From contig JAFGBY010000057.1 in assembly GCA_016932915.1 (NCBI GenBank), forward strand, positions 1-34,511: a stretch of 34,511 nt of DNA. Direction: 5' to 3'. How positions within the stretch are numbered: position 1 is the first letter of the stretch; each line of letters opens with the position of its first letter. This document shows, one piece after another, positions 1 through 19,403 of this stretch. Source of the stretch: Acidobacteriota bacterium (lineage in GTDB: Bacteria; Acidobacteriota; DATKUA01; JAFGBY01). The translations under genes were made by a program, and so were the position numbers. The notes below the pieces were generated by a model. That model saw only the letters and a program-made list of their open reading frames with translations, was not told the DNA's origin and ran no database searches.

Positions 1-24
1 ATTCTTATCTGAGGATGATATAGA

Positions 25-1152
25 ATGCGATATTTTCTGGTTAATTTGGCGGGAATTCTGCTTCGGTTTATTCCCATGAAGGCAAAAACCGGCCTTGTAA
101 AGATCGGTTCGCCAACCAAGGATTCGCCGGTTTTACTGACCGGTAATTACATCCTTACTGTTTCCAGGGTAAAGAGGGCTCTTCGGGAGATGGATGTGTA
201 CCTGTTGATAGCAAACAGTGATGGAATAAATATCTGGTGCGCTTCAATGGGAGGGTTATTTACAAGTAAAGATGTTATCCAGATAATTTATGACTCGGGG
301 ATAGATAAACTTGTAAAGAAAAAGAAGATAATTGCCCCACAGCTGGCGGCATCAGGTCTCGAGAAGAAAGAAATCAAGAAACAGACAGGATGGAATATAA
401 TATGGGGCCCCGTCTATGTCCGGGATATAAAAGCTTATCTTTCGGCAAATCTTCATAAAAGCCCTGAGATAAAGAAGACAAGTTTTCCTTTATTATCCCG
501 TCTGGAAATGGCTGCCGCATGGGCTTTTCCTGTTTCTGTTTTTATCGCACTTTGTTGTCTACTGTTCTGGAACAGGGCTATTCTTCCTGCGATAACTCTG
601 ACATGGTTTTTAACCCTGCTTCTGTTTACTTTTTTTCATCAGTACAGCAGATTTATTAAAAAACGTGGACTTGAATGTGTGGGGAGAAGGGTACGGTTTG
701 CCAGGCTGATGATATGGTCATTGATTATGATTGTTATCACTATCCGGGCAGAGCTCTTTGGGTATCTTGATCCTATCAGTATGATCAAGGCGTCGGTTTT
801 ATCTCTCATTATTGTGATCGCATCAACTATTGATACACTCGGATTTGCGCCGGGCCACAAGAGCAGCCTTCATCCTGATAAGTTTAATATAGTTCGAGTG
901 GATTCAAAAAAATGTAGCCTTTGCGGTGAATGTGTGAATGTCTGCCCGGCGGAATGTTTTGAATTGGATAATAAAAAACTGAAAATACCAGGGGCTTCCG
1001 TGTGTGTGCAGTGTGGAGCTTGCATTATACAATGTCCATGTGATGCTCTTTCATTTTTTACTCCGGATGGTAAAAGAATTGATCCGGATGAAACGAGACA
1101 ATTTCGGTTGAATCTCTCCGGTAGCAGGTCTGTGGAAATTAAAAAAAGTTAA
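25..1152 (+). CDS. Fused HgcA-like (corrinoid/CFeSP-type domain + membrane helices) and HgcB-like (2x[4Fe-4S] ferredoxin) protein
   Basis: N-terminus GLVKIGSPTKDSPVLLTGNYILT...SDGINIWCASMGGLFTSKDV...IIAPQLAASGLEKKEIKKQTGWNIIWGPVYVRDIKAYL follows the HgcA corrinoid-domain pattern. About four hydrophobic segments follow, then CSLCGECVNVCP and CVQCGACIIQCP ferredoxin motifs. Confidence 0.8.
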   Translation: MRYFLVNLAGILLRFIPMKAKTGLVKIGSPTKDSPVLLTGNYILTVSRVKRALREMDVYLLIANSDGINIWCASMGGLFTSKDVIQIIYDSGIDKLVKKKKIIAPQLAASGLEKKEIKKQTGWNIIWGPVYVRDIKAYLSANLHKSPEIKKTSFPLLSRLEMAAAWAFPVSVFIALCCLLFWNRAILPAITLTWFLTLLLFTFFHQYSRFIKKRGLECVGRRVRFARLMIWSLIMIVITIRAELFGYLDPISMIKASVLSLIIVIASTIDTLGFAPGHKSSLHPDKFNIVRVDSKKCSLCGECVNVCPAECFELDNKKLKIPGASVCVQCGACIIQCPCDALSFFTPDGKRIDPDETRQFRLNLSGSRSVEIKKS

Positions 1153-1156
1153 TAAA

Positions 1157-1678
1157 TTACCAGGTTATCTTATATATACATTTCTTCCCGCCGGTTTTTC
1201 TGCATTCATTCCCTATTTCATAAATAGCAGCGGATTTCTGAAATCTTTTCGCCATTTCCAAATACACTGTTTTATCAAATTCACAGGGGTATGGTGTGTC
1301 GGATTCTATTGTGATCAAATTTGGCGAAGTAATGTCAACATCAATTGTCGAATTATCATCACAGTGATGTTCATGATATTTCTCATTCAATATACTGAAA
1401 AGTTGTACTATATCGACATCAGGTGGAAGTGGAGCTCTATGCCCGACTGTCTCTGCGATTTTTCTTACCCCGTCTTCTTTTATCAATTCATAAGTTTTAT
1501 TTATCATTCTGAGATAAACATCCATTGGATACCATTTCTCCGGATCGATTACTCCGAGCTTGACATCCTCCAGGACAATTCGAGCTATCTCATCGACGGC
1601 AAGGGACTCAGCAAATACAGCTATCACGTCACCTTTGATTTTTGCATCGGGATTATTAGAATTACATATCACCTTCAA
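1157..1678 (-). CDS. Small V4R/H-NOX-like domain protein, distant paralog of the tandem array at 16.9-19.4 kb
   Basis: 173 aa; shares NPDAKI.G at the N-terminus and PCEFD...GNECR..G..KCIYKITW at the C-terminus with the four tandem paralogs. Start appears to be TTG. Confidence 0.7.
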   Translation of the reverse strand: MKVICNSNNPDAKIKGDVIAVFAESLAVDEIARIVLEDVKLGVIDPEKWYPMDVYLRMINKTYELIKEDGVRKIAETVGHRAPLPPDVDIVQLFSILNEKYHEHHCDDNSTIDVDITSPNLITIESDTPYPCEFDKTVYLEMAKRFQKSAAIYEIGNECRKTGGKKCIYKITW

Positions 1679-16765: not shown

Positions 16766-16949
16766 TTTTCTCTCTTTTATCAAATCATCTTCTTTTTTGA
16801 AATATATGAAGTTATATGTCCCACTATAGTTATTAATATAAATAGTTGCTAATTAATACAGTATAATAGTTGAACTAATTCATCAATTGATATATATTGT
16901 ATTATGTATTGGGGCGAAAAATATTTTTAAAATTAATAGGAGAAGTGTC

Positions 16950-17471
16950 ATGGAATATCAGGCAAAAAATCCGAACGCAAAAGTTATCGGTGGGTCAATA
17001 TTGGCTTTTCTAGCTTCGTTGACCAATAGAGAACTTGGGCTTAAATACCTTGAAAAACATGGTATCACTGATGTTAAAGCTGATGGCTGGTACTCACACC
17101 AGGCATTACTTTCAGCGGAAAAAGACCTTGTGGACGCTATCGGTGTTCCAACTGCCCTTGAGGGAGTGGGAGAAAAAATACCTGATAATGCAAAAATGCC
17201 GGAATGGAAAGACATATATGAAGTCTTTGAGAATTGGACTAATGTTTATATGAACAATCACCAGGGAGATAATGAATCCTATTTTAAAGTGATTGATAAG
17301 ACAGAACACTCAATCAAAATAGAGACTAATAATGCATACTCTTGTGCATTTGACAGAGGGCTTTTCAGGGCCGTAGCAAGAAAATTTTTCCCCACAGCGA
17401 AAGTTACTGAAACGGGGAATAAATGCCGAGCAAAGGGCGATAACATTTGTGTATACCATATCGTCTGGTAA
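16950..17471 (+). CDS. V4R/H-NOX-like small domain protein, tandem paralog 1
   Basis: 173 aa from ATG 16950 (MEYQAKNPNAKV) after an AGGAGAAG RBS; C-terminus SCAFDRGLFRAVARKFFPTAKVTETGNKCRAKGDNICVYHIVW. Confidence 0.75.
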   Translation: MEYQAKNPNAKVIGGSILAFLASLTNRELGLKYLEKHGITDVKADGWYSHQALLSAEKDLVDAIGVPTALEGVGEKIPDNAKMPEWKDIYEVFENWTNVYMNNHQGDNESYFKVIDKTEHSIKIETNNAYSCAFDRGLFRAVARKFFPTAKVTETGNKCRAKGDNICVYHIVW

Positions 17472-17577
17472 GTTTAGATTTATACTATTTGTTGAGTGAT
17501 TAGTGAGGATGCAATGTGTAAGCGGAATAATATCTTATTTACGAATTTATATTGCAATCAAGAAAGACACTCAGTAA

Positions 17578-18120
17578 ATGGAGTTTAAATCAAAGAATCC
17601 TGATGTAAAAGTTTCCGGTGGCGCGATACTCGCGTTTCTCGATGCTCTCAATAATCGTGAACTCGGTCTTAAATATCTTGAGAAACATGGAATTCTTAAT
17701 ATCGAGGCAAAGAAATTCTATTCCCAGCAAGCGTTTCTTCTCACACAGAAAGATCTTGCGGAAACAATGGGTGTAGCCATCGCGCTTGAAGCTACCGGTG
17801 CCAATATTCCACTGGAGTTGCCGCCTGAAAAAGCAAAAACTGTTTTTGAAATATTTGAAAATTGGCAAAAGCATTATATGGATAATAATATTGGAGATAC
17901 TGAATCTTACTTCAGGATTATTGAAAGAGGCGAAAATTATCTCTTACTTGAAACCAATAATCCATATCCATGCGACTTTGACCGTGGTTTGATAAAAGCA
18001 TTTGCACATTTTGTTCAACCGGAAGCGAAGGTTGTTAAATGGGGCAGTAAGTGCAGATCACATGGGGATGATGCGTGCACTTATCATATAAGCTGGAAAG
18101 AAGAACTTTCCATGGATTAA
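17578..18120 (+). CDS. V4R/H-NOX-like small domain protein, tandem paralog 2
   Basis: MEFKSKNPDVKVSGGAILAFLDALNNRELGLKYLEKHGI...PCDFDRGLIKAFAHFVQPEAKVVKWGSKCRSHGDDACTYHISW plus a 7-aa tail. Confidence 0.75.
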   Translation: MEFKSKNPDVKVSGGAILAFLDALNNRELGLKYLEKHGILNIEAKKFYSQQAFLLTQKDLAETMGVAIALEATGANIPLELPPEKAKTVFEIFENWQKHYMDNNIGDTESYFRIIERGENYLLLETNNPYPCDFDRGLIKAFAHFVQPEAKVVKWGSKCRSHGDDACTYHISWKEELSMD

Positions 18121-18221
18121 TTATAATGAATTACGGTATTATATCCGGGATTAGTTCCTGCCGGGCAAAATACAAATAAATGGGGCTTTTTTTGATTTAA
18201 CAAACATTAAAGGAGAAAAAT

Positions 18222-18743
18222 ATGGAATATCAATCTAAAAACTCAAATGTCCAGGTTAGCGGAGGAGCGATTCAGGCTTTTTTGAATTCGCTAAACAATA
18301 AAGAACTTGGTATTAGATACCTGAAGCAACATGGTATTGAAAATCTTGAAGCAAATAAATTTTATTCTCAGCAGGCTTATCTTCTGGCCCAGAAAGACCT
18401 GGTAGCTGCTATTGGAGTTCCGACAGCTCTCGAAGGGGTTGGGGAAAAAATACCGGAACAGCTTCCACCTTCCAACGTTAAAGATGTTTTTGAATTATTC
18501 GAGACATGGATTAATCATTACCGAGCAAATAACCAGGGAGATAATGAGTCTTACATCAGAGTTACTGAGAAGGGTGAAAATTATCTATATCTTGAAACCA
18601 ATAATCCCTATCCATGTGCTTTTGACAGGGGGCTTATCAGGGCTTTTGCACGGAAATTCCATCCTACTGCAAAGGTGACAAAAGTCGGAGATAAATGCCG
18701 CGCAAAAGGTGACGCTGCCTGTACCTATCATATATTCTGGTAG
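18222..18743 (+). CDS. V4R/H-NOX-like small domain protein, tandem paralog 3
   Basis: MEYQSKNSNVQVSGGA...PCAFDRGLIRAFARKFHPTAKVTKVGDKCRAKGDAACTYHIFW; AAAGGAGAAA RBS. Confidence 0.75.
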   Translation: MEYQSKNSNVQVSGGAIQAFLNSLNNKELGIRYLKQHGIENLEANKFYSQQAYLLAQKDLVAAIGVPTALEGVGEKIPEQLPPSNVKDVFELFETWINHYRANNQGDNESYIRVTEKGENYLYLETNNPYPCAFDRGLIRAFARKFHPTAKVTKVGDKCRAKGDAACTYHIFW

Positions 18744-18760
18744 AGATAAATATTCTAACG

Positions 18761-18791
18761 AAAAAGGACATACTAATAGTATGTCCTTTTT
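18761..18791. terminator. Intrinsic terminator (potentially bidirectional) after paralog 3
   Basis: AAAAAGGACATACT-aat-AGTATGTCCTTTTT, perfect 14-bp inverted repeat with flanking A/T tracts. Confidence 0.85.
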
Positions 18792-18813
18792 ATTTCTAAA
18801 TTTCTTTTGCTAA

Positions 18814-18842
18814 TTGTCAACTGTGACATTATATTATATATA
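18814..18842 (+). promoter_or_regulatory. Candidate sigma70-type promoter for paralog 4
   Basis: TTGTCA (18814-18819), 17-nt spacer, TATATA (18837-18842). Confidence 0.4.
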
Positions 18843-18881
18843 CCGTGGGGCTATATTTTATGTAAATATGGAAGGAAGATT

Positions 18882-19403
18882 ATGGAATATCAATCTAAAA
18901 ACCCAAATGTTCAGGTTGCAGGTGGTGCGGTTCTTGCCTTCGTGAATTCACTCACAAATAAAGAACTTGGTCTCAAATACCTTGCAGCGCATGGCATCAC
19001 GGAGATTCAATCGGACAAGTTATATTCTCAACAAGCTTATCTTGATGCTTTGAAGGATCTGGTTAAGGCTATTGGCGTTCCGGGTGCTTTGGAAGGTGTT
19101 GGAGAAAAAATACCCGATTACCTGCCTCCGATGAACGTAAAGGATGTTTTTGAATTATTTGAAACCTGGATTAACCACTACAGGGCCGCAAACCCCGGCG
19201 ACAATGAATCATATATCAGAGTAACTGATAAAGGGGAAAACTATCTTTATATTGAAACAAATAACCCTGTTGCATGCGCTTTTGACAGAGGGCTTATCAG
19301 AGCTTTTGCTCGGAAGTTCCATCCAAATGCTAAAGTAACCAGTAATGGTGATATGTGCCGAGCCAAAGGAGATGCAGCCTGTTTATACCATGTGTTCTGG
19401 TAG
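18882..19403 (+). CDS. V4R/H-NOX-like small domain protein, tandem paralog 4
   Basis: ATG 18882 (MEYQSKNPNVQVAGGA) gives 173 aa, the same length as paralogs 1 and 3; ACAFDRGLIRAFARKFHPNAKVTSNGDMCRAKGDAACLYHVFW. Confidence 0.75.
   Translation: MEYQSKNPNVQVAGGAVLAFVNSLTNKELGLKYLAAHGITEIQSDKLYSQQAYLDALKDLVKAIGVPGALEGVGEKIPDYLPPMNVKDVFELFETWINHYRAANPGDNESYIRVTDKGENYLYIETNNPVACAFDRGLIRAFARKFHPNAKVTSNGDMCRAKGDAACLYHVFW

Follow-up and report, generated by a model that had tools for sequence, protein, structure and literature searches.

A divergent HgcAB-like fusion protein from an Acidobacteriota bacterium and the linkage of its family to a SAM-dependent methyltransferase

The gene studied here resembles HgcA and HgcB, the mercury-methylating pair, which between them carry a corrinoid domain with a cap-helix Cys, a membrane domain and two [4Fe-4S] motifs. 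Purified HgcAB receives its methyl group from SAM via methylcobalamin with Cys ligation (PMC11588087); the Co-thiolate role of the cap Cys is described there and in PMC7305189, and mutation of HgcB Cys73 abolishes methylation (PMC7305189). Fused HgcAB proteins have been named in Pyrococcus furiosus, Methanococcoides methylutens, Kosmotoga and Atribacteria (PMC7438021, PMC7573106), and the literature treats such fusions as non-methylating relatives with which trees are rooted (PMC7438021, PMC7573106, PMC8605020). These proteins presumably belong to NF043039, the "HgcAB-like fusion protein" family. Both this family and CpaM (NF043040), the corrinoid protein-associated methyltransferase, a class I SAM-dependent enzyme, are already known, each with an NCBIfam model, although our literature search found no paper using the phrase "corrinoid protein-associated". 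The function of the HgcAB-like fusion family is not solved, and its members nearly always lie beside a SAM-dependent methyltransferase.

The window, by which we mean the whole stretch of 34,511 nucleotides that was analysed, is an entire contig (1-34511) of a 2.33-Mb, 178-contig, 75.6% complete assembly, and opens with an intact ORF with an ATG start (Table 1). Its product scored 381.7 bits against NF043039 (curated cut-off 285), with residues 6-343 aligned to profile positions 2-350; the scores against the HgcA model NF040863 (144.1 bits, cut-off 275) and the HgcB model NF040864 (44.9 bits, cut-off 99) both fell below threshold. The corrinoid, membrane and ferredoxin parts all lie within the single ORF, as in the NF043039 family, with which the window protein shares domain order, length, an N[IV]WC..GG-type cap motif and a match along the whole profile. 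The gene is thus a clear NF043039 member, and a divergent new member of a family that was already known. An earlier note, made from the DNA alone, had tentatively read its product as a corrinoid protein of the membrane that carries its own electron donor, with fused HgcAB-like proteins as its kin, rather than as a proven Hg methylator; the profile match and the tree described below agree with that reading, although its novelty does not hold.

Table 1 Features of the HgcAB-like fusion gene and its upstream edge in the window.
Feature	Position	Strand	Basis or remark
HgcAB-like fusion protein, NF043039 family	25..1152	+	375 aa; profile match
Residues 17-138, corrinoid-binding domain of the HgcA / CFeSP gamma C-terminal type	73..438	+	Pfam, PDB sequence and fold matches
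Cap-helix motif N69-I-W-C72-A-S-M-G-G77	229..255	+	Sequence, alignment
Membrane domain with its hydrophobic segments (residues 158-274)	496..846	+	Hydrophobicity; low-confidence AlphaFold helices
Ferredoxin domain (residues 294-342) with eight Cys ligands for 2x[4Fe-4S]	904..1050	+	Pfam, alignment, Cys positions
All upstream sequence on the contig; site of CpaM in relatives cut off	1..24	+	

The arrangement that had been noticed at first sight, a corrinoid domain, membrane helices and a 2x[4Fe-4S] ferredoxin in one 375-aa ORF, was borne out by Pfam, Cys positions and hydrophobicity, and the domain matches are far beyond chance. Pfam CdhD covers the whole corrinoid domain (E = 2.9e-15), Fer4 families match at about residues 290-341, and the ferredoxin Cys form two complete CxxCxxCxxxCP motifs (297/300/303/307 and 327/330/333/337). 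Strongly hydrophobic peaks occur at about residues 163-181, 186-204, 228-246 and 251-269; these are four clear peaks, whereas HgcA has five transmembrane helices. Among solved structures in the PDB, the one closest in sequence to the corrinoid part is the CFeSP large (gamma) subunit (4djd, 2ycl), matched at E = 7.3e-12, with the same domain fold and about 26% identity. Only its C-terminal corrinoid domain is common to the two proteins, and the full-length CFeSP architecture was not found; the window protein instead has a cap Cys where CFeSP has Thr, an added membrane domain and a C-terminal ferredoxin. AlphaFold, given six sequences, returned mean pLDDT values of 53 for the whole protein and 51 for the corrinoid domain alone and left the cap helix without resolution (confidence below 50 at residues 66-77, the span holding C72); despite this weak model, the fold matches were headed by the HgcAB model 9a0b, at E = 1.1e-9, and by CFeSP.

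We compared the cap helix with those of 23 other non-redundant fused relatives and with those encoded by 16 canonical HgcA genes taken from the same sample of the phylum. The window motif, WCASMGG, does not match the HgcA consensus N(V/I)WCA(A/G/S)GK: Gly takes the place of the HgcA Lys. The canonical caps read WCAAGKG in 15 of the 16 genes and WCAAGEG in the remaining one, whereas the Lys occurs in 0/23 fused relatives. In the latter, N[VI]WC is followed by variable residues and, in 20/23, by a Gly-Gly end like that of the window SMGG, the exceptions being L007 (SLSG) and L096/L097 (AGGD). Because it is common to the fused relatives, the "altered" cap is a mark of the family. The motif and its departure from HgcA are therefore present as the earlier note described them, but the note overstated how particular they are to the window protein, and a reading as a special mutation is rejected. 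What sets the window copy apart within the family at this site is Met75, at a variable position that holds A, T, G, C or L in relatives. By homology with HgcA Cys93, C72 is presumed to be the lower Co ligand.

In the ferredoxin part, the last Cys of the window protein is residue 339, two residues past the second cluster motif, so that both the HgcB C-terminal Cys pair, whose absence had been pointed out before, and an equivalent of Cys73, expected about 12 residues past that motif, are missing. Three distant fused relatives (L007, L053, L099) have Cys-rich tails. The window protein also differs from its closest NF043039 clade, since it keeps the full set of eight ligand Cys whereas the second Cys of the first Fe-S motif is missing in all 16 of the other members of this 17-row clade (L003, L004, L005, L033-L037, L051, L052, L087, L088, L092-L095), e.g. 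CRGAGFCEQVCP. The same Cys is kept in the more distant fused members L007, L053 and L096-L099. In seven-iron ferredoxins, loss of this Cys goes with a [3Fe-4S] cluster, which suggests that the 7-Cys fused proteins may hold a [3Fe-4S] or differently ligated cluster. Mapped on the tree, the 8-Cys/7-Cys pattern requires two changes, and a tree grouping the 7-Cys rows was not clearly rejected (AU p = 0.066), so the eight Cys of the window copy may have been either retained or regained.

A maximum-likelihood tree of 40 rows, comprising fused proteins and the 16 canonical HgcA, separated the two groups on one branch with support of 100/100. Within the fused group, the window protein belongs to a clade of 13 with 97/97 support, in which those members that are named come from Acidobacteriota, Chloroflexota and Myxococcota; no other protein of this clade has an end branch as long as that of the window protein (1.22). 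Six of 59 conserved, near-invariant columns are changed, including H99K and L104A, no more than in several relatives. Position 99 is His in 23/23 fused relatives and in 15/16 HgcA, and a G-S-T motif at residues 273-275 has become G-F-A. The long branch and K99 indicate that the activity of the window copy could differ, or could be decaying.

In relatives, the gene for CpaM, a partner of the fused protein rather than a homologue, lies ahead of the fused gene and in many cases overlaps its 5' end. A profile built here was run on loci with flanks reaching about 1.5 kb at most. It placed CpaM immediately ahead of the fused gene, or joined to it in one chain, at 21/22 of the fused loci that have sequence on that side, and next to 0/16 canonical HgcA genes (Fisher p about 8e-10, a value that ignores the relatedness of the sequences and therefore overstates the evidence). 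Of the 14 genome entries with a fused gene that were searched, 12 had a CpaM above cut-off (11 distinct, G376 and G396 apparently being one genome), the two without it being the window's own genome and G059. Across 396 genomes of the phylum, the fused protein was above cut-off in nine and CpaM in seven, all seven within the nine. The two are also joined physically: L090 (G648:C58, 1432-3051, minus strand) is a single 539-aa chain with a CpaM part (278 bits) and an HgcA-like part that scores just under the 285 cut-off (276.7 bits) and has no ferredoxin, and L098 (G758:C110, 1495-3153, minus strand) holds a CpaM part and a complete HgcAB-like part in one ORF, its CpaM part, cut by the contig end, reaching 172.9 bits against a threshold of 180. 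At L007 (G059:C12), a different class I methyltransferase overlaps the start of a divergent fused gene, whose product has an extra N-terminal hydrophobic part in addition to its Cys-rich tail.

The window contig starts 24 bases upstream of the ORF, and its upstream neighbour is consequently lost. CpaM was not found anywhere in the 75.6% complete assembly, from which this upstream region is missing; the two candidates for it inspected at other contig ends, C152 (contig start) and C161, proved to be different methyltransferases. Inspected by eye as a clue to the acceptor, the genes downstream of the fused gene differ between L033, L036 and L037, with nothing conserved. In the window, the gene directly downstream (1157-1678, minus strand) is convergent and is a paralogue of four tandem genes of ~175 aa at 16887-19403 (plus strand); its product is 30% identical to the copy at 18222 (E = 2e-26), three of the tandem four show a weak V4R domain match that stays under the cut-off, and together the five form a family within the window.

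Since HgcAB takes its methyl group from SAM and the family is linked to CpaM, the protein is most simply read as a corrinoid methyl carrier of the membrane that is driven by SAM and contains its own reductant, an explanation that we consider, as a whole, to be probable. The protein would be anchored in the membrane and bind its corrinoid, as homology predicts, under the cap helix bearing Cys72, and its own ferredoxin domain would reduce the cobalt to Co(I). The methyl group would come from SAM, probably with CpaM loading the corrinoid or helping to load it; this organism, too, would have a CpaM gene just upstream, at the place cut off by the contig end. From the corrinoid, the methyl group would pass to an acceptor at or in the membrane, probably other than mercury. 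CpaM and the fused protein might also act in series on one substrate, the fused protein carrying out the corrinoid chemistry alone by taking SAM directly. HgcAB accepts the methyl group of SAM with no CpaM-like methyltransferase at its side (PMC11588087), so CpaM might methylate something else, such as the product or final acceptor, as its kinship with the UbiE/ArsM small-molecule methyltransferases would allow; the CpaM-HgcA polypeptide L090, however, slightly favours direct loading of the corrinoid by CpaM, and we regard action in series as rather unlikely. Loading from methyl-tetrahydrofolate or by a Wood-Ljungdahl methyltransferase, suggested by the homology of the corrinoid domain to CFeSP, itself loaded from methyl-tetrahydrofolate, appears more improbable still, given the CpaM linkage in relatives and the use of SAM by HgcAB (PMC11588087); moreover, neither a separate CFeSP above cut-off nor CdhC (acetyl-CoA synthase) was found in the incomplete assembly, which makes such a donor less likely.

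The combined HgcA and HgcB domain content and the conserved cap Cys could also point to a fused-form mercury methylase. The window protein nevertheless scores under both the HgcA and HgcB cut-offs, has the cap Lys of HgcA replaced, and lacks any C-terminal Cys as well as an equivalent of the essential HgcB Cys73 (PMC7305189), and in two organisms with fused genes, Methanococcoides methylutens and Pyrococcus furiosus, MeHg did not rise above control levels (PMC5893877). On these residues and these two organisms, mercury methylation by the window protein is unlikely, and we give a fused-form methylase very little credence. Equally little can be given to a decaying, non-functional family member: the long branch, the loss of the invariant H99 and L104 and the changed G-S-T motif would fit decay, but the ORF is intact, the eight Fe-S Cys and the cap Cys are all kept, and the number of changed conserved columns is not exceptional among relatives.

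These results bear on the natural role of HgcA-type proteins: the fused branch, with which published work roots mercury-methylation trees, is now tied by gene order, co-occurrence and two gene fusions to one SAM methyltransferase, CpaM. This tie makes the question of corrinoid loading directly testable without mercury. Of the by-products of this analysis, the CpaM-HgcA fusions and the counts of co-occurrence are of most use. The window gene itself is not to be counted as a mercury-methylation marker. More tentatively, CpaM and the HgcAB-like fusion may constitute a widespread SAM-driven membrane corrinoid methyltransferase whose natural acceptor is other than mercury, the window copy being a diverged form, altered in details of its corrinoid domain and Fe-S part; if this is true, the pair would indicate what the HgcA lineage originally did.
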